Assembly: GCA_027485815.1 (NCBI GenBank)
Contig: JAIXQE010000020.1
Span: 1 to 37,098 of the forward strand
From: Opitutaceae bacterium
Lineage (GTDB): Bacteria > Verrucomicrobiota > Verrucomicrobiia > Opitutales > Opitutaceae
Direction: 5' to 3'
Length of the DNA stretch: 37,098 nucleotides
This document shows, piece by piece, positions 10,712 to 18,650 of this stretch. Under the pieces are notes generated by a model that had not been told where the DNA came from, did not search any database, and saw nothing but the letters and a program-made list of their open reading frames with translations. A program made the translations under genes and the position numbers. The stretch's first letter is position 1, and each line of letters starts with the position of its first letter.

Positions 10712-11293
10712 TCAACGCAGCGGCACGGGACGCTCCTCCACGCTCTCGCGCAGCATTGCCCAAGCCGCCCGGTGCGCGGGCGACTCCGCGTCCTGACTGA
10801 ACAGTCGGAAGACAACCATCACCCCGGGCCACGCCTTCACCCCGACCGCAAGGAGGCGATACTCGTGCGGGGGCAAGTCGACGCGGCCGACCAGCGCACG
10901 GTCGGTGAAGAGGCACCACGTGCCGGCGCCGCGGCGCGGCTCGAGTTCCTCGAAGCGCATCGCCTGCTCGACGGAGGCAGCGACGTACTCCTCGAACAGT
11001 TCCACCAGCCGCTCCCGGCGCGCCCGCGGCGTCGCGGCGCGACCCTCGGGATCCGGCAGGAACGCGAGTTCAAGGCTGACCCGGCCCGCGGCATCCTGGA
11101 GCCGCAGCTCCGGCGGGGCGGCGGGTGCCGCCGGACGCTCCACCCCAAATCCGGACGGCACCGCGATCGTGACGCGGCGCCCGGGCGCCAATTCCACGCT
11201 CTCCTCGCGCTGCGCCGCGGCGGACGCCACCGCCGGCCAGGTCAGGAGAAGCGCAAGTCCTCCGAACCAGGCGGGGCGGAGGCGCGCGATCAC
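10712..11293 (-). CDS. Secreted protein of unknown function
   Basis: A 193-residue protein that I do not recognise. It begins with a clear signal peptide (residues 1-28, LRPAWFGGLALLLTWPAVAS, ending ASA). The mature part is a single domain: a beta-rich start (SVELAPGRRVTIAVPSGFGV), a charged helix (RARRERLVELFEEYVAASVE), then WCLFTDRALVG and VMVVFRLFS. The layout resembles small periplasmic proteins that sense or bind something, but no domain name is justified. The start is GTG at 11293, overlapping the stop of the ArsR-methyltransferase gene by four bases (GTGA), so the two are translationally coupled and probably linked in function. The subtilase gene follows 117 bases later. Confidence 0.75.
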   Translation of the reverse strand: MIARLRPAWFGGLALLLTWPAVASAAAQREESVELAPGRRVTIAVPSGFGVERPAAPAAPPELRLQDAAGRVSLELAFLPDPEGRAATPRARRERLVELFEEYVAASVEQAMRFEELEPRRGAGTWCLFTDRALVGRVDLPPHEYRLLAVGVKAWPGVMVVFRLFSQDAESPAHRAAWAMLRESVEERPVPLR

Positions 11294-12237
11294 GACGCGG
11301 CTCCTTCCGGCCGGAGGCCGCTGGCCAGCAGCGTCTCGAAACCGGGCTCGGCCTCCTCGCGTGCGACCACGCTGACCTCCACCTTCTGAAAGCCGGCCTG
11401 CTTCAGGAAACCATGCAGCGTGCCCTCGGCGAACCCGAGCCAGACATCCGCGTAAAGCTCGCGCGCCTGCTCGAACGAATGCGCGTTCAGGTCGAGCACG
11501 AGCACCTGGCCGCCGGGCCGCAGGATGCGGAAAGCCTCGTCCACCGCCCGCTGGGGCTGACGGGCGTGGTGCAGGGCCTGGCTGAGGATGGCGAGGTCGA
11601 CCGACGCGTCCGGCAGCGGCACGCGCTCGATGTCGCCGAGACGGTAGGTGAGGTTCGCCAGCCCGTTCTTCTCGGCCAACGCGGCCCCGACCTCGACCAT
11701 CCGGGGCGAGTTGTCGATGCACCAGACCCGCCTCGCCCGCCGCGCCAGCAGCTGCGACACGAGCCCCTCCCCCGCCCCGAGGTCCGCGATGTCGATCGCG
11801 GGAGTCAGCTGCAGCGCCAGGCGCCCGATCGCCTCCCACGAGCGGCCCGGGCAGTAGTTCCGGCCGAGCCGGCCGGCGATCAGGTTGAAATACTGCTCCT
11901 GCGTCCGCCGCCGGCGCTGCAGGATGCGCTCGAGATTCGCCTGATCCGCCTGCATCGGGGCGGACCCGGCCACCGCCGCCAGCGCCGCCACCACGAGCGC
12001 CTCCGTCGCCGCGGGCACGTCCGCCCGGCGCGAGTAGAACGCGTTCTTCCCCTCCCGCCGGTCGCTCACCAGGTTGGCCGAACGCAGCAGGGCCAGCTGG
12101 GAGGAGATGCGCGACTGGCCCATCGCGAGGATCTCCTGCAGCTCGGCGACCGAGAGCTCCTCCCGCGAGAGCAGCGCGAGCAACCGGACCCGGGTCGGGT
12201 CGGAGAGGGTCTTGAGGATGTCCCAGGGGCCGTTCAC
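11290..12237 (-). CDS. ArsR-family regulator fused to a SAM-dependent methyltransferase
   Basis: A 315-residue fusion. The N-terminal winged helix is ArsR-like (ILKTLSDPTRVRLLALLSRE, then a recognition region around ILAMGQSRISSQLALLRSAN and the wing DRREGKNAFY). I see no CxC metal-binding motif in helix 3, so classical metal sensing is unlikely. After a linker comes a class I methyltransferase: motif I IADLGAGEGLVSQLLARR, acidic residue in CIDNSPRMVE, GDIERVPLPDASVDLAI, and RILRPGGQVLVLDL. Such ArsR-methyltransferase fusions are known; in several bacteria they sit near methionine-cycle genes, which is not the case here. GTG 12237 is chosen because it gives a normal ArsR N-terminus and lies 36 bases after a TTGCCA box; the in-frame TTG at 12273 is that box. 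Confidence 0.88.
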   Translation of the reverse strand: MNGPWDILKTLSDPTRVRLLALLSREELSVAELQEILAMGQSRISSQLALLRSANLVSDRREGKNAFYSRRADVPAATEALVVAALAAVAGSAPMQADQANLERILQRRRRTQEQYFNLIAGRLGRNYCPGRSWEAIGRLALQLTPAIDIADLGAGEGLVSQLLARRARRVWCIDNSPRMVEVGAALAEKNGLANLTYRLGDIERVPLPDASVDLAILSQALHHARQPQRAVDEAFRILRPGGQVLVLDLNAHSFEQARELYADVWLGFAEGTLHGFLKQAGFQKVEVSVVAREEAEPGFETLLASGLRPEGAAS

Positions 12238-12267
12238 GGGGCCAAGGCTGGGCGCCCCCGGCCGGCT

Positions 12268-12273
12268 TGGCAA
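12268..12273 (-). promoter_or_regulatory. TTGCCA box before the ArsR-methyltransferase gene
   Basis: On the minus strand TTGCCA starts 36 bases before the GTG at 12237. The spacing matches other boxes in the window and argues that this TTG is a promoter element and not a start codon. No clear -10 is visible. Confidence 0.4.
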
Positions 12274-12292
12274 CCGGGGACGCGTCGGCGCC

Positions 12293-15200
12293 TCACGGGC
12301 GCGGGGCGGCGGGCGCGGGGGCGGAGGGAGCCGGGCGCGGCGCCAACGGGTGCTCCTTCAAGAGCTCATCCACCATATAGAAGTTCGTCCGGTCGCGCGT
12401 CGCCGCGCGGACCTTCGCCACCTGCTCGGCCGAGATCATCGCGCCATTGTTGCCGAACGAGAGCCGCACGTAACTCAGGACCGCCGCCAGCTCGTTGTCG
12501 TTGAGCAACCCGCCGAAGCCGGTCATCGGCGGCACGCCGTTCGCGGGATCGTACTTGACGCCGTTGACCTCGATCGGACCCCAGAGGCCCTTGAGGGTGA
12601 GCTTGATCAGGCGCTCGTCGTCATCGAGCCAGTTGCTCCGCTCGAGCGGCGGATAGACGCCCGCGAGTCCCTTGCCGTTCGCCTGATGGCAGGTCGCGCA
12701 ATGGGCGTCGCGGAGGTAGACCTCCTTGCCGATGCGGTAGATCCGGTTGTCTTCGCCGGTGAGGGGCCGGCTGGGCCCGAAACTCTGCTCCGCCTCGGTC
12801 TTCGGCGGGGCCGGGAAGTCGTACTGGCCCGCGAAAAACGCCGCGGCCGCCGGGTTCTTCGCCAGGTCCACGCCCCCGGCCGCGCGCAGCGCCTCGGCAT
12901 CGTCCTTCAGGGTGTGCGTCAGGATATGCCGCGTCACCGGGCCCATCCACGCGTCCAGCGGCAGGCGGAGCGCCTCGAGGACGACGCGGGCGCCGTCCGC
13001 GTTATCGAGCCAGGAAGCGGCAACGATGGCCTCAAGACGCACGCGCGGGTGCGGGTCGCGCGCGGCTTGGAGCAGCAGGTCGACCGCGCCGGGAATCTGG
13101 AGGTGGGCGTAGCGGACGACATTCACGGCGGCGGCGCGGGCCTCGTGGCGGGAGGCGGCGAGGACCTGCCGGAGCAGGGCGGCGTCCGGCTGGTTCTGGG
13201 CCCAGGTGGCCCAGAGGGCCTCGCAGAGGTGACGTTCATACAGCGGATCGGCGCGGTCGAGGCGGGCCACCCACGCGCGCACCGCGGGCAGGACCTGCGC
13301 CGTGGGGCGGCCGCGGAGCTCACGGCGCGTCCGGTAGCGGGTCCGGTACTCGGGCAGCTTCAGATTCTCCAGCAGCTCGGGAATCGTGGCCCCGGCCACC
13401 TTCGCCACGGGCACCAGCGGGCGACCGGGATAAGTCACCCGGTAAATCCGGCCATGCTCGTGGTCGCGGTTCGGGTCGCGGGCGTTGTGCTGCATGTGCC
13501 CGATCAGGGCGTTGTGCCAGTCGATGAAGTAAAGGGAGCCATCCGGCGCGAACTCGAGGTCGACCGGGCGGTAGTTCGGGTCGTTGCCGGAAACCAGGTC
13601 GCCGGCCAGCGTGCCGAGGAAACCGGCGCCGTCCTCGCGAATCGCCGACAGGCCGATGCCGAGGAAGCCGATGCTGTTGCAGATCATGAACTGGCCCTGC
13701 AGGTGGTCCGGGAAATGGCGCGAGGAGACGAACTCGGAGCCCGAGGTCGGCCGCGAGCGCTTCGGGGTGAAGGTGCGCGTCTTCGGGATCTCGACGCCGT
13801 AGGGCATCTTGGCGGAGAGCGGCAGGCCCCACCAGTTGAGGCCGTCGGAGGCGTCGGAAATGAAGCACTGCCCCCAGTCGTCAAAGGCCACGCCCCAGGG
13901 GTTGTTGTAATCCGCCTGGCTGTAGCGCTCGAGGCGGAAGTTCTTCGGGTCGAAGCGCCAGACGCCGCCGTCGTTCACCCGCCGCGGGCCATACGGGGTC
14001 TCCACCTGCGAGTGGAGGAAGCGGCCCTCGCAGAGATAGAAGGCGCCCGAGGCGTCGGCGGAAAAGGCGGAGATCGCGTGGTGGGTATCGTGGGTGTCGA
14101 AGCCGTGGAGCAGGATCTCGGTGCGGTCCGCGCGGTCGTCGCCGTCGTCATCCACCAGCAACACGAGGTTCGGCTCCTGCGCCAGGTAGACCCCCTCGGG
14201 CGCGAACTCGAAGCCGATCGGGAGGTGCAGGCCGTCGGCGAAGACCTTCTGGCGGTCCGCGACGCCGTCGCCGTTGGTGTCCTCGAGGATGAGCAGCTTG
14301 TCGTTGGGCTTGGGGTCGCCCGGGCGCCAGTGCGGGTAGCTCGGCATCACCGCGACCCAGAGCCGGCCCCGGTTGTCGAACGACATCTGCACCGGGTTGG
14401 CGAGATCGGGGAACTCCTTCTCCGAGGCGAACAGCTCCAGTTTGAAGCCTTCCATCGGCTTGAGGTCGGGGATCACGTCGCGGCCCGGGCGATACCGGCC
14501 GGTGCCCATCGCGCCGCCCGGCTTGAAATTCGTCGGCACCGGCGGCAGCGCGTGCGTCCGGCTGTCGTCGACCGCGAGGTCCCGCTTCCGGCCGGCGGCC
14601 ACGTCGTGGATCAACTGGTCGCGCAGCGCCATCATCTCGCGCGTCTTGCGCACCTCGTCCGGATAGTTCTGCGGCCCGTACGGCTGGTAGCGTTGGCCGT
14701 GGGTGTGCACGCCGTTGACCAGGTTGTAGTCGTTGTTCCAGAGCCAGTCCTTCTCCTTGACCGCCGCGTGCACGAGCGCCGGATCCGCCTCGCTGCGGGC
14801 CGCGGGGGCCGGGCCGTAGAGGCCGTCGGCCAGCAGGCGGGCGAGCTCCTGGTACCCCGCCTCGGTGGGCGCGAAGCCGTTGAGCGTGAGCGGCGGCCCG
14901 CCCGCGGCATAACGGCGGCGGGTCGGCTCAAAGAGGTCGATGAAGGTCAGGCGGTGGCGCTCCGCGACCCGGCGCATCGCGGCGGCGTAGACGGCGAGGC
15001 TCGCGTTCTCCCGCTGACCGTTGGGCAGGTCCCGCGTCGCGCTCAGGTCCTCGAAGGCGAGGGGGGAGACGAGGACGAGGCGCGGGGCCGCGCGGCCATT
15101 GTAGGCCCGGCTGAGGGTGTGCCGCACGAAGGCGTCGAGCTCGGCCTCGAAGACCGGGGCGCGCTCCGGACCGTCGAAGGACTCGTTGAAGCCGAAGAAC

Positions 15201-15709
15201 GCGACCACGGTGTCCGCCTTGAGGTGAGTCAGCCACTCATCGGGGGTCGGGAAGAACCCCTTGCCGTTGTGGGAGGCGAGTTCGGGGCGGAACTGCTCGG
15301 CGCCGGGGAACGCCCATTGCGAGACGCGCGCGGGGTGGGGCCGGAAGCCCGGGGTGTCACCGGGGCGCCCGAGGTTGCGGACGAACAGGCGCCGGTCCGG
15401 GAAGCGGAGGTGCAGCTCGGTCTCGAGCCGGCTGTAATACACGTCGCGCTCCGCCAGGCCGTTGCCGATGAAGGCGACGCGCTCGCCCTCGGCGGGCGGG
15501 GCGACCTGCTGCGGACGCGCGGCGGTGGCGACCGGCGGTTCGTCCATCTGCGCGTGGGCCCCGCGCGCGGCGCGCACCTCCTCGGGACTGGGCGCGGCCG
15601 GGGCGGCCTTGCGCTTCCCCTGCGCCGGCGGCGCCTTGGCGGCATCCGCGGCGGCGAGGCCGGAAGCGAGGGAGACGAGGGTCAGCAGGAGCGGGGCGAG
15701 GCGGGGCAT
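12293..15709 (-). CDS. SGNH-like domain + PVC-type propeller + HEAT + cytochrome c (CATCH) fusion
   Basis: A 1138-residue exported protein typical of Verrucomicrobiota and Planctomycetota. A signal peptide (residues 1-22) is followed by a low-complexity Ala/Pro/Lys stretch. An SGNH-hydrolase-like domain (about 75-270) follows, starting FIGNGLAERD, with FFGFNESFD and NGFAPTEAGY. The middle (about 410-780) is a PVC-type membrane-bound-dehydrogenase propeller: FKLELFASEKEFPDLANPVQ, EDTNGDGVAD, VDLEFAPDGSLYFIDW. A HEAT-like segment lies near 800-930. The C-terminus is a class I cytochrome c with CATCH at 1004-1008 and a likely Met ligand in PPMTGFGG. The family is thought to oxidise sugars or act in polysaccharide breakdown, passing electrons to the haem; the substrate is unknown. 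The ATG at 15709 gives the signal peptide; an in-frame TTG lies at 15727. Confidence 0.9.
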   Translation of the reverse strand: MPRLAPLLLTLVSLASGLAAADAAKAPPAQGKRKAAPAAPSPEEVRAARGAHAQMDEPPVATAARPQQVAPPAEGERVAFIGNGLAERDVYYSRLETELHLRFPDRRLFVRNLGRPGDTPGFRPHPARVSQWAFPGAEQFRPELASHNGKGFFPTPDEWLTHLKADTVVAFFGFNESFDGPERAPVFEAELDAFVRHTLSRAYNGRAAPRLVLVSPLAFEDLSATRDLPNGQRENASLAVYAAAMRRVAERHRLTFIDLFEPTRRRYAAGGPPLTLNGFAPTEAGYQELARLLADGLYGPAPAARSEADPALVHAAVKEKDWLWNNDYNLVNGVHTHGQRYQPYGPQNYPDEVRKTREMMALRDQLIHDVAAGRKRDLAVDDSRTHALPPVPTNFKPGGAMGTGRYRPGRDVIPDLKPMEGFKLELFASEKEFPDLANPVQMSFDNRGRLWVAVMPSYPHWRPGDPKPNDKLLILEDTNGDGVADRQKVFADGLHLPIGFEFAPEGVYLAQEPNLVLLVDDDGDDRADRTEILLHGFDTHDTHHAISAFSADASGAFYLCEGRFLHSQVETPYGPRRVNDGGVWRFDPKNFRLERYSQADYNNPWGVAFDDWGQCFISDASDGLNWWGLPLSAKMPYGVEIPKTRTFTPKRSRPTSGSEFVSSRHFPDHLQGQFMICNSIGFLGIGLSAIREDGAGFLGTLAGDLVSGNDPNYRPVDLEFAPDGSLYFIDWHNALIGHMQHNARDPNRDHEHGRIYRVTYPGRPLVPVAKVAGATIPELLENLKLPEYRTRYRTRRELRGRPTAQVLPAVRAWVARLDRADPLYERHLCEALWATWAQNQPDAALLRQVLAASRHEARAAAVNVVRYAHLQIPGAVDLLLQAARDPHPRVRLEAIVAASWLDNADGARVVLEALRLPLDAWMGPVTRHILTHTLKDDAEALRAAGGVDLAKNPAAAAFFAGQYDFPAPPKTEAEQSFGPSRPLTGEDNRIYRIGKEVYLRDAHCATCHQANGKGLAGVYPPLERSNWLDDDERLIKLTLKGLWGPIEVNGVKYDPANGVPPMTGFGGLLNDNELAAVLSYVRLSFGNNGAMISAEQVAKVRAATRDRTNFYMVDELLKEHPLAPRPAPSAPAPAAPRP

Positions 15710-15744
15710 CACGGGACCCCGAAGCAACCCACCGGCCGCGCGGC

Positions 15745-15750
15745 CGGCAA
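15745..15750 (-). promoter_or_regulatory. TTGCCG box before the PVC-cytochrome gene
   Basis: In the 75-base gap between the DUF1080 gene and the PVC-cytochrome gene, TTGCCG on the minus strand begins 41 bases before the ATG at 15709. This would give the second gene its own promoter even though the two genes are co-directional. No clear -10 is visible. Confidence 0.38.
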
Positions 15751-15784
15751 GAAGAGACCGCGCCGCCCGGAGCCGCCGCCGGAC

Positions 15785-16810
15785 TCAGCGCTGCACCGGC
15801 CGCAGGACCAAATTGCGGTAGGATACCGGACCGTGGTCGCCCTGCAGCAGGATCGGGCCCGGGCGGAGGGGATCCCAGCCCAAGGCGCCGCCCGTGACGC
15901 CCGCCAGCGGCTGGTTGTCGATGATCACGCGGCCGTTGAGGACCACCGTCGCGTGCTGGTCGACCAGGGTCAGCTCGAGGGACTGCCACTCGCCGGGCGG
16001 CTTCTCCGCGGCGACCGCGGGCGTGAGGCGGCTGTAGATCGCGCCCATGTTGTGGGAATCCAGCGCCTTGCCGTGGGAATCCGCCACCTGCACCTCGTAG
16101 AGTCCCCGGAGGTAGACGCCGCTGTTGCTGCGGGCCGGAACGTTCACCTCGAGCGTGAGGCGGAAGTCGGTGAACTCGGCGCTGGTGCGGAGATTCGCCG
16201 TGCGCGCCGCGGGCTTGCCCGGCTCGCGGGCGGGCGGGCGGTTGACGAGCACGCCCTCGACCGCGGACCACGCGTTGGCCAGCTGCGGCTCCTGCGCCAC
16301 CCAACCGCTCAGGTCGCGGCCGTTGAAGAGCGCGACGGGCGACCCGAAGCGGACCGCGGCCAGGTCGGGGCGCGGCGGCAGCGGGGCAAGGCGCCGGCCG
16401 GTGAACTCGGTGCGGTCGAAGCCCCGGCCGTTGGGGCGCGGCACGACGCGCGTCCCCCGCAACTCGCCGCCCTCGAGGCGCGCGGTCACGGTCTCCGTCA
16501 GCTGTTGCCGGCGAACCACCTTACCCGCGGCGTCCTTGCGCTCCACCTCGCGCACGCGGGTTGCGGTGACCGCGGGTCCGTCGAACGTGACGCTCGCGAG
16601 GGGGAGCACGCTGCCGCCGCCCCAGAGGATGGCGCCGTCGACCCAGCCGTCCTCGGCCTTGAGTTCGAGCCAGCCGGCGGCGCCGTTCGGCAGGGCGAGC
16701 CCCCAGCGGCCGAGCAGCGGGTCGGCGGGAGCGGCGGCGAACAGGGAGGGAACGGCGGCCAGGAGGCCGGCGAGGAACCGGGCGTGGGGGAAGCGGGAAC
16801 GGGGGTGCAT
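15785..16810 (-). CDS. DUF1080 protein (3-keto-disaccharide hydrolase family), secreted
   Basis: A 341-residue exported protein. A signal peptide covers residues 1-27 (ARFLAGLLAAVPSLFAAAPA). Residues about 30-145 form a beta-rich N-terminal region that I do not recognise (WGLALPNGAAGWLELKAEDG). The C-terminal 190 residues are a DUF1080 concanavalin-like domain: PVALFNGRDLSGWVA, DFRLTLEVNVPARSNSGVYL, then WQSLELTLVDQHATVVLNG and the ending GPVSYRNLVLRPV. DUF1080 proteins are common in PVC bacteria, and some hydrolyse 3-keto-glycosides made by a dehydrogenase. Its place just upstream of the PVC-dehydrogenase-like gene fits such an oxidise-then-hydrolyse pathway, but this is inference. A TTGCCC box lies 38 bases before the ATG. 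Confidence 0.88.
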   Translation of the reverse strand: MHPRSRFPHARFLAGLLAAVPSLFAAAPADPLLGRWGLALPNGAAGWLELKAEDGWVDGAILWGGGSVLPLASVTFDGPAVTATRVREVERKDAAGKVVRRQQLTETVTARLEGGELRGTRVVPRPNGRGFDRTEFTGRRLAPLPPRPDLAAVRFGSPVALFNGRDLSGWVAQEPQLANAWSAVEGVLVNRPPAREPGKPAARTANLRTSAEFTDFRLTLEVNVPARSNSGVYLRGLYEVQVADSHGKALDSHNMGAIYSRLTPAVAAEKPPGEWQSLELTLVDQHATVVLNGRVIIDNQPLAGVTGGALGWDPLRPGPILLQGDHGPVSYRNLVLRPVQR

Positions 16811-16892
16811 TGGGGCGACACGTTGGGCGCCGGGGCCGCGGCGGGCAACTCCGCGCTTGCCGGGCCGGCCCGCCTTCCGGTTCGCTGCGGGG
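16811..16892. promoter_or_regulatory. Divergent DUF1080/argS promoter region with back-to-back TTGCC boxes
   Basis: The 82-base region holds TTGCCC on the minus strand (16848-16843, 38 bases before the DUF1080 ATG) and TTGCCG on the plus strand (16857-16862, 36 bases before the argS ATG). Together they form the inverted repeat GGCAA...TTGCC (16844-16861). If both are -35 boxes, they are only eight bases apart and two polymerases could not easily bind at once. No convincing -10 is visible on either side. Confidence 0.45.
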
Positions 16893-18650
16893 ATGCACGT
16901 TGCCTGCCCGCTCGCCGCCGACCTCGATGCCGCCCTCCGCACCGCGGCGGCCGCCGCCGGCTGGGCGGACGCGGCGGACTTCCAGCCCGACGTCCGCGCC
17001 GCCGATCCGCGGCACGCGGACTTCCAGGCCAACGGCGTGCTGCCCCACGCGAAGGCCCGGCGCCTCAACCCGCGCGCCCTCGCCGAGCAGCTGGTCGCCG
17101 CCCTGCCCCCGGAGCTCCGCGCCACCTGCACCGTGACCGTCGCCGGGCCCGGCTTCATCAACTTCACCCTGCAGCCGGAGGCCCTCCTCGCGTGGCTGCG
17201 CGCGCACGCCACCGCGGAACAGCTCCGGGCCGCCTGTGCCGGCGGCGCGGCCGGCACCTGGGTCGTCGACTACTCCTCCCCCAACACCGCCAAGCAGATG
17301 CACGTCGGCCACCTGCGGTCGGCCGTCATCGGCGAGGCCCTCTGCCGCCTGCTCGCGTTCACGGGGGCGACGGTGGTCCGCGACAACCACCTCGGCGACT
17401 GGGGCACGCAGTTCGGCAAGCTCATCTACGGCTACAAGCGCTGGGCCGACCCCGCGGCGCTGGCGGCCGATCCGATCGAGGAACTCGAGCGCCTGTACAA
17501 GCGCGGCCACGAGGCCACGCCCGAGGGTTCGCCCGAGCTTGAGGAGGCCCGGCGCGAGCTGGTGCGCCTCCAGCAGGGCGACCCCGAGAACGTCGCGCTC
17601 TGGCGCAAGTTCTCCGAGGTGAGCCTCGGCGCCTTCCAACGCATCTACGACCGCCTTGGCATCCGCTTCGACCACAACCTCGGGGAGAGCTTCTACAACG
17701 ACCAGGTGGAGCGCGTCTACACGGAGCTCACCGCGGCCGGCATCGCGGAGGTCAGCGAGGGCGCCCTCGTCGTCTTCCACCCCGAGCACCCGCGGTTCAA
17801 GACCCAGCCGTTTTTGGTCCGCAAGGCCGACGGCGCCAGCAACTACGCCTCGACCGACCTCGCCACCGCCCTTTACCGCACCGAGCACTTCGGGGCCGCC
17901 GGCATCGTCATCGTCACCGACTTCCGCCAGTCCGACCACTTCGAGCAGCTCTTCCTGACCGTGCGGAAATGGTTCACGGCGCGCGGCTACCGGCTGCCGG
18001 AACTGCACCACGTGACCTTCGGCGCGGTGACGGGCGAGGACGGCAAGGCGCTCAAGACGCGGAGCGGCGACGTGATCCGGCTGAAGGCGCTGCTGGACGA
18101 GGCGGAGGAGCGGGCGTTCGCGCTGGTGACGACGAAGAGCCCCGAGTTGCCTGAGGCGGAGCGCCACGCGATCGCCGCCGCCGTGGGCGTCGGGGCGGTC
18201 CAGTACGCGGACCTCGCGCAGAACCGGAGCAGCAACTACGTGTTCTCGTGGGACAAGATGCTGTCCCTCGACGGCAACACCGCGCCCTACCTGCTCTACG
18301 CCGGGGCGCGCATCCACTCGATCTTCCGCCGGGCCGGGGTGGCGCCCGAGGACGCCACGGCCCTCGCGGCGGCGGACGCTCCCGCCACGCCGGCGGAACT
18401 CGCCCTCGCGCGCCGGCTGATCCGCTTCCCGGACGCGATCCGCCAGGCCCGCGAGACGCTCCGGCCGCACCTGCTGTGCCTCTACCTGTTCGAGCTGGCG
18501 GGCGACTACAGCTCGTTCAACAACGCGGACAAGGTGCTGGTCGACGAACCGGCGGTGCGCGCCCGCCGGCTGCTGCTCTGCGCGCGGACCCTGCTGGTGC
18601 TCGAGACCGGCCTGCACCTCCTCGGCCTGCGGCCGCTGCGGCGGATGTGA
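16893..18650 (+). CDS. argS: Arginyl-tRNA synthetase
   Basis: A 585-residue class Ia synthetase that charges tRNA-Arg. The N-terminal tRNA-binding domain (about 1-110) contains QANGVLPHAKARRLNPR and VAGPGFINFTL. The HIGH-type signature follows as VVDYSSPNTAKQMHVGHLRS, with HVGH as the nucleotide-binding motif, then DNHLGDWGTQFGKL. The KMSKS equivalent is degenerate, as often in ArgRS (EDGKALKTRSGDVI). The C-terminal DALR anticodon-binding domain has FELAGDYSSFNN and LGLRPLRRM at the end. Length is normal and all expected blocks are present. It is monocistronic or leads a plus-strand run with the GYF_2 gene, which has its own TTGCCG box 66 bases downstream. Confidence 0.97.
   Translation: MHVACPLAADLDAALRTAAAAAGWADAADFQPDVRAADPRHADFQANGVLPHAKARRLNPRALAEQLVAALPPELRATCTVTVAGPGFINFTLQPEALLAWLRAHATAEQLRAACAGGAAGTWVVDYSSPNTAKQMHVGHLRSAVIGEALCRLLAFTGATVVRDNHLGDWGTQFGKLIYGYKRWADPAALAADPIEELERLYKRGHEATPEGSPELEEARRELVRLQQGDPENVALWRKFSEVSLGAFQRIYDRLGIRFDHNLGESFYNDQVERVYTELTAAGIAEVSEGALVVFHPEHPRFKTQPFLVRKADGASNYASTDLATALYRTEHFGAAGIVIVTDFRQSDHFEQLFLTVRKWFTARGYRLPELHHVTFGAVTGEDGKALKTRSGDVIRLKALLDEAEERAFALVTTKSPELPEAERHAIAAAVGVGAVQYADLAQNRSSNYVFSWDKMLSLDGNTAPYLLYAGARIHSIFRRAGVAPEDATALAAADAPATPAELALARRLIRFPDAIRQARETLRPHLLCLYLFELAGDYSSFNNADKVLVDEPAVRARRLLLCARTLLVLETGLHLLGLRPLRRM

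Follow-up and report, generated by a model that had tools for sequence, protein, structure and literature searches.

A triad-less SGNH-like domain is a conserved partner of PVC-type redox propellers in an Opitutaceae bacterium and its relatives

In this work we analysed a stretch of 37,098 nucleotides from an Opitutaceae bacterium (contig JAIXQE010000020.1 of assembly GCA_027485815.1; hereafter the window), and in particular the protein P0001 of 1138 amino acids, which is encoded on the minus strand at positions 12293-15709 (Met codon at 15709, stop at 12293-12295). P0001 carries, in this order, an N-terminus resembling an export signal, a domain resembling SGNH esterases, a linker, a PVC-type beta-propeller, HEAT repeats and a cytochrome c domain. 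The SGNH-like domain is a real and conserved partner of PVC redox propellers, in which the catalytic triad of the esterases has been replaced. Comparisons of sequences and of structure models lead us to favour, with slightly better than even confidence, the explanation that this pseudo-esterase domain was reused to bind or position the substrate, likely a glycoside, of a periplasmic redox enzyme.

An SGNH fold without the catalytic triad

The SGNH-like domain extends over residues 70-305 (positions 14795-15502, minus strand, as are all parts of P0001), and the Pfam family Lipase_GDSL_2 (PF13472) matches residues 89-287 with 38.6 bits, above its cut-off of 32.9 bits. When residues 62-350 were modelled by AlphaFold2 with 56 sequences, the resulting 289-residue model had a mean pLDDT of 86.8 and a pTM of 0.88, and comparison by Foldseek and VIA-align placed it closest to SGNH enzymes. 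The best match was BT4096 (7br2_B; Z 18.8, 248 residues aligned, 3.3 Å), with an aligned range that runs to residue 289, the last of the model, followed by 4q9a (Z 18.7), 3rjt (18.0), LAE5 (5jd3; 17.8) and Axe2 (17.2-17.8). The register was set by profile alignment to solved SGNH enzymes, in which GNSITDG of 7br2 lies over GNGLAER and DGLH of 1yzf over NGFA, and the triad positions are therefore assigned to Gly84 (Ser), Asn277 (Asp) and Ala280 (His).

An earlier note on this DNA, made from the sequence without database searches, had described an SGNH scaffold with no Ser in block I and no D-x-x-H in block V, and both the fold match and the three assigned positions bear this out. The motifs were also quoted correctly: block I reads FIGNGLAERD (residues 80-89, 15443-15472, with Gly84 at 15458-15460 and Arg88 at 15446-15448), block III reads GFNE (173-176, 15182-15193), and block V reads NGFAPTEAGY (277-286, 14852-14881, with Ala280 at 14870-14872). 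Block II, RNLGRPGDT (111-119, 15353-15379), was located, as was block III, in the orthologue alignment. When compared with the features of active enzymes given in the accessible part of PMC9487903 (block I Ser, block II Gly, block III Asn and block V Asp-x-x-His), P0001 retains the block III Asn (Asn175) and the block II Gly, for which G114 of P0001 and G117 (76 of 78 rows of the orthologue alignment) are the candidates, and lacks the block I Ser and the block V Asp-x-x-His. Judged by model and sequence together, the domain has a genuine SGNH fold but is, by its defining residues, no SGNH hydrolase.

Conservation of the former active site among orthologues

We fetched 80 orthologue loci, the top-ranking among 200 relatives that peptide patterns had turned up, and aligned their proteins with P0001 (57-95% identical); 77 rows, P0001 and 76 orthologues, cover block I. 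G82, N83, E87 and R88 are present in all 77 of these rows; at position 84, 74 rows carry Gly, 2 carry Ser and 1 carries Met. Where the block V His would stand, 76 of 81 rows have one of Ala, Ile, Leu and Val and three have His (L068, L071 and L084), two of which, L068 and L084, are the orthologues that have Ser plus His. Asn175, the residue of the oxyanion hole, is retained in 79 of 80 rows. Since G82-N83 and E87-R88 are kept in every row that covers them, the loss of the triad is an inherited one and does not reflect decay. Furthermore, eight residues of the domain (G82, N83, E87, R88, N112, D118, E176 and S177) are invariant in the covering rows, and for this reason "degraded", the word chosen in the earlier note for the active site, does not describe it.

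If the domain had fallen out of use after the fusion and simply decayed, the absence of Ser, Asp and His would be explained. However, the mean conservation of the SGNH-like domain (0.776) is near that of the propeller (0.798), and a broken triad is seen in fused as well as in separate copies among the rows fetched from our 486 sampled genomes and three more, so that we regard decay as extremely unlikely. From the conservation of S177, H125 and H147 in the covering rows (80 of 80, 76 of 78 and 78 of 78, respectively) one could propose that the domain still works as an esterase whose catalytic pair has been rearranged, for instance to S177 with H125 or H147. However, the equivalent of S177 follows Asn-Asp in BT4096 (7br2), which retains its own block I Ser, and S177 therefore looks ancestral and not new; with the block V His position filled by the aliphatic residues named above, a rearranged pair seems very unlikely to us, at a level not far above that of decay.

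The region between blocks II and III (residues 120-165, 15215-15352) is also strongly conserved, and the confidence of the model is lower in part of it. R128, Q131, W132, F134, P135, H147, G149, G151 and W159 are near-invariant there in the orthologues.

Distribution of the triad in the wider family

A profile of the family, A1, was searched over 240 genomes of the phylum of P0001 (Verrucomicrobiota), where 75 genomes matched at E 0.001, many of them only weakly, over 246 genomes of the phylum labelled Planctomycetota, that of the genome behind L084 (G240), where 70 had a match, and over the three genomes from which L084, L068 and L071 come. The better matches, not all of them, were fetched, giving 132 rows above 50 bits, 130 of which are distinct once the duplicates L258 and L259 are removed. 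At least one triad residue is missing in 128 of these 130 relatives; P0001 lacks all three. Of the 125 rows in which the three triad columns are filled, 8 have Ser, 19 have Asp, 99 have His and 2 (L206 and L207) have the complete triad; in each of the 5 gapped rows a triad residue is likewise absent from some filled column. Ser has been lost nearly everywhere, and most of the wider relatives keep the block V His. Of the two losses that the earlier note had proposed to check across the family, that of Ser is nearly general and that of His is not, though His is gone from most orthologues. Canonical motifs in homologues, which by the note would refute its reading, are complete only in L206 (1821-3182) and L207 (1824-3182), proteins of about 454 amino acids with an intact GDSIT...D..H triad, for neither of which an adjoining propeller was found.

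At the Ser position, the 132 rows have Thr in 57, Gly in 34, Ala in 23, Ser in 8, other residues in 7 and a gap in 3. A tree of 131 rows, built by a quick method and rooted on L206 and L207 (47 of its 126 inner branches are open), requires 6 changes between Ser and non-Ser, 11 between His and non-His, and 33 when all letters at the Ser position are counted. The Ser position thus drifts on the tree in a way that does not resemble a nucleophile under selection. P0001 sits in a clade of 22 (starred in the tree), with the His missing from 16 rows, present in 5 and gapped in 1; of the 26 His-less rows among the 125 fully filled ones, 15 belong to this clade. Ser together with His, with Asn in place of Asp, is found in six rows of the wide set, including L068 and L084, at four places on the tree. 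Arg four residues after the Ser position (Arg88 in P0001) is present in 112 of 130 relatives (2 are gapped) versus 1 of 41 controls with canonical motifs found by script (Fisher p 1e-24, with relatedness ignored).

Linkage of the domain to the propeller

The SGNH-like domain is fused to a propeller in 94 of the 130 distinct rows (96 of 132 with the duplicates). Of the 36 separate copies, 25 have an adjoining open reading frame (ORF) for a propeller, in all cases downstream on the same strand, so that the gene order of the separate copies is the domain order of the fusions; one of the 25, L248, was recognised through a longer fetch, L372. Three separate copies (L209, L262 and L281) end at contig ends. 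When the comparison is confined to separate copies of at least 100 bits without truncation at a contig end, 23 of 29 have the propeller directly downstream on the same strand. As a control we took 68 strong PF13472 loci, without A1-family members, from 15 genomes in which a separate copy occurs as well; 29 were chosen by the tool (flanks up to 1.5 kb) and 39 were taken in order of E value (flanks up to 2.5 kb). Only 1 of these 68 has a propeller downstream (Fisher p 9e-16 versus 23 of 29, again with relatedness ignored). The pairing of an esterase-like fold with a redox enzyme, to which the earlier note had drawn attention, is thus a real one. We found no published description of an SGNH-PVC fusion, as judged by titles and the openings of abstracts among the matches listed, in a search that left subscription literature largely uncovered.

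Such close linkage could also mean that the domain has a purely structural task, or that it serves as a docking surface joining the propeller, the HEAT repeats and partners, in which case the pocket would be a remnant of the fold. The linker (residues 306-410, 14480-14794), which is partly helical in the model, is itself conserved (0.746), and conservation that runs through it fits such a role. However, few residues of the domain vary as little as those of the former active-site blocks, charged ones included, and a pure scaffold does not require this. We therefore consider a structural role unlikely, while leaving it a real chance.

The redox part of the protein

P0001 clearly belongs to the PVC-type CxxCH family: it is matched by NCBIfam TIGR02604 (PVC-type heme-binding CxxCH) with 225.4 bits against a cut-off of 122.2 bits, and by the Pfam families DUF7133, HEAT_2 and Cytochrom_C. 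The propeller (residues 411-770, 13400-14479) was delimited by TIGR02604/DUF7133, by the model and by profile comparison, and the HEAT repeats (residues 776-960, 12830-13384) by Pfam. An AlphaFold2 model of residues 398-775, made with 82 sequences, had a pLDDT of 90.6, and its best solved folds were the AA12 pyranose dehydrogenase 6jt5 (Z 28.5), the AA12 enzyme of T. reesei (28.2) and the pyrroloquinoline quinone (PQQ) sugar dehydrogenase 3a9g (27.8); other propellers, including lactonases, match from Z of about 24 down. A profile built from 15 of the GSDH proteins that ten of these genomes encode matches the propeller by hhalign (probability 98.4, E 5e-15). Taken together, the fold and the profile-profile comparison indicate that the propeller is a distant relative of the PQQ sugar dehydrogenases (GSDH). 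A sequence search with the propeller profile against solved structures returned teneurins and weak matches only and was set aside. His543 (82 of 82 rows), Asn603 (82 of 82) and Arg714 (79 of 82) align with the catalytic His, the Asn and one Arg of GSDH, residues of a type whose roles in PQQ enzymes are taken from the accessible part of PMC6881789.

In the cytochrome c domain (residues 990-1100, 12410-12742), the haem site CATCH (1004-1008, 12686-12700) is intact, as the earlier note had said, with C1004, C1007 and H1008 conserved; Met1062 (12524-12526) is conserved too and would be the axial haem ligand. The first 26 residues (15632-15709) are hydrophobic and, by eye, resemble a signal peptide, so that P0001 is probably exported to the periplasm.

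A proposed role and the points against it

We propose that an ancestral SGNH esterase lost its Ser-Asp-His triad and became a constant companion of a PVC-type redox propeller. Its former pocket, marked by E87-R88, R111-N112, D118 and N175-E176, would bind or position a substrate for the propeller, with a glycoside or oxidised sugar as the likeliest candidate. The propeller would oxidise this substrate, and the electrons would then pass in the periplasm to the C-terminal cytochrome c haem, or to copper in paralogues with a cupredoxin. Such paralogues exist in the genome of P0001, which encodes four SGNH-PVC proteins, P0001 and L212 with a cytochrome c, and L211 (1412-4930) and L213 (1620-5312) with a copper-binding cupredoxin.

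Several observations weigh against this proposal. Because Ser reappears with His in six relatives, some members might be weak esterases, and the invariant S177 and the near-invariant H125 and H147 might form another catalytic arrangement. Profile A1 was built from fused proteins and hence favours the recovery of fusions, and 6 of the 29 separate copies (L191, L192, L195, L256, L257 and L261) are without a propeller in the fetched flanks. Immediately downstream of the control L344, which has GDSITQG and lies outside the A1 family, comes a same-strand ORF for a PVC propeller; a propeller can therefore also adjoin an SGNH enzyme that works, and going by this sequence the company of propellers is not wholly reserved to forms without the triad. 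The use of PQQ is unproven, since the Arg that precedes Asn603 in GSDH enzymes is not conserved in the P0001 family, PF07995 gave no match to P0001 (up to E 10, with filters that drop most matches above 0.1), and pqqE gave no match above cut-off in 19 genomes. The misses of pqqE, and likewise of pqqC in the same 19 genomes, do not show absence, because 14 control genomes gave none either. Lastly, close homologues of a 3-keto-disaccharide hydrolase (PF06439), which is encoded directly upstream of P0001 (15785-16816, minus strand), occur at only 4 of the 80 orthologue loci (L021, L022, L023 and L030), with two weak matches besides (L066 and L082), and an iterated profile of this hydrolase matches at 10 of the 80, where flanks are often short. 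An operon argument from the adjoining hydrolase was dropped for this patchiness, and the neighbourhood is kept as a hint only.

The iterated profile matched 21 ORFs over the 80 orthologue loci, 122 loci of the wide set and the PVC loci of the genome of P0001. In L196, L198, L210 and L280, a single chain holds the 3-keto-disaccharide hydrolase, the SGNH-like domain (just under the Pfam cut-off in L280), the propeller, the HEAT repeats and the cytochrome c, an arrangement that speaks for the proposed role. When 11 other PVC proteins of the genome of P0001 were scanned, 3keto-disac_hyd was found in L284, DUF6807 in L286, ThuA in L290, Laminin_G_3 in L297 and none in the remaining seven.

These chains bear on another explanation, in which the pocket has acquired new chemistry and cleaves, by elimination or hydration, a keto-glycoside made by the propeller, by means of E87, R88, D118 or E176. 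The near-invariance of the charged pocket residues is consistent with it, as is the occurrence of the 3-keto-disaccharide hydrolase in the same chain and on the PVC core of L284. However, chains that already hold the hydrolase would have no need of another cleaving domain, and we know of no SGNH enzyme with such chemistry. In the available part of PMC5342196, Lac161_ORF7, a PVC-HEAT-cytochrome c protein from Verrucomicrobia, is described as hydrolysing lactose with a Km of 1.8 mM, which counts for this explanation as well as for the favoured one; a DUF1080 protein is proposed, in the part available of PMC9007349, to act after a periplasmic lactose 3-dehydrogenase. On balance we consider new chemistry in the pocket fairly improbable. 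A broader version is more doubtful still: an oxidative glycoside-cleaving machine of the periplasm, widespread in Verrucomicrobiota and Planctomycetota, in which the PQQ-like propeller would make a keto-glycoside, the converted, now Arg-based SGNH pocket, alone or with the 3-keto-disaccharide hydrolase of the same chain, would hold and cleave it, and the electrons would leave via the cytochrome c or the cupredoxin.

Comparison with known systems

The OSK domain of the protein Oskar has an RNA-binding role. As an SGNH-like domain recruited to a task other than hydrolysis (PMC7250577, accessible part) it resembles the domain of P0001, from which it differs in belonging to an animal germ-line protein with no redox partner. 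SGNH/GDSL hydrolases (PF13472; BT4096 7br2, LAE5 5jd3 and Axe2) share with P0001 the fold, the order of the blocks, the oxyanion-hole Asn and the block II glycines, whereas P0001 differs from them in lacking the triad, in the Arg four residues after the Ser position, and in its fusion or linkage to a redox propeller. In CtCE2 of CtCel5C-CE2, an esterase pocket serves carbohydrate binding beside another enzyme, but CtCE2 retains a Ser-His dyad and esterase activity (PMC2661963, as far as its available text goes). Lac161_ORF7, of the PVC type (TIGR02604/DUF7133), has a similar propeller, HEAT repeats and cytochrome c, but it is described with three domains, with no mention of an SGNH-like one in the accessible text of PMC5342196. 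CcPDH, an AA12 enzyme with an AA8 cytochrome b and a CBM1, couples a cytochrome, a PQQ propeller and a binding module (PMC6881789 and PMC4332668, available parts). By analogy, P0001 has a comparable layout, a propeller fold with a built-in cytochrome and an extra module, made from different parts: the cytochromes (b in CcPDH, c in P0001) and the modules are unrelated, and the PQQ site is no more than partly conserved in P0001.

Neighbouring genes and further observations

The closest full-length named relatives of P0001 are about 94% identical, among them L021 from an Opitutia metagenome-assembled genome. Directly downstream of the gene (11290-12273, minus strand) lies a gene for an ArsR-type helix-turn-helix domain fused to a methyltransferase, which also adjoins the gene in L021-L024 and L030 and has a homologue in L088. 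An open frame of 1822 codons (12074-17542, plus strand) lies antisense to the P0001 gene and looks like a by-product of high-GC codon use. The N-terminus of L213 has a weak match to ThuA, under Pfam's cut-off, and L281 (3-2657), an ORF cut by the contig end, combines a 3-keto-disaccharide hydrolase, a GH2-like sugar-binding domain and the SGNH-like domain.

Significance

PVC-type propeller proteins are numerous in this genome, in which 18 open frames besides that of P0001 match the propeller profile with at least 63 bits, and their role is open. A label such as "GDSL lipase" on proteins like P0001 can mislead. A pseudo-esterase that accompanies one subgroup of the propellers provides a concrete handle on whether they act on sugars, and its link to the 3-keto-disaccharide hydrolase points to a pathway for assay.

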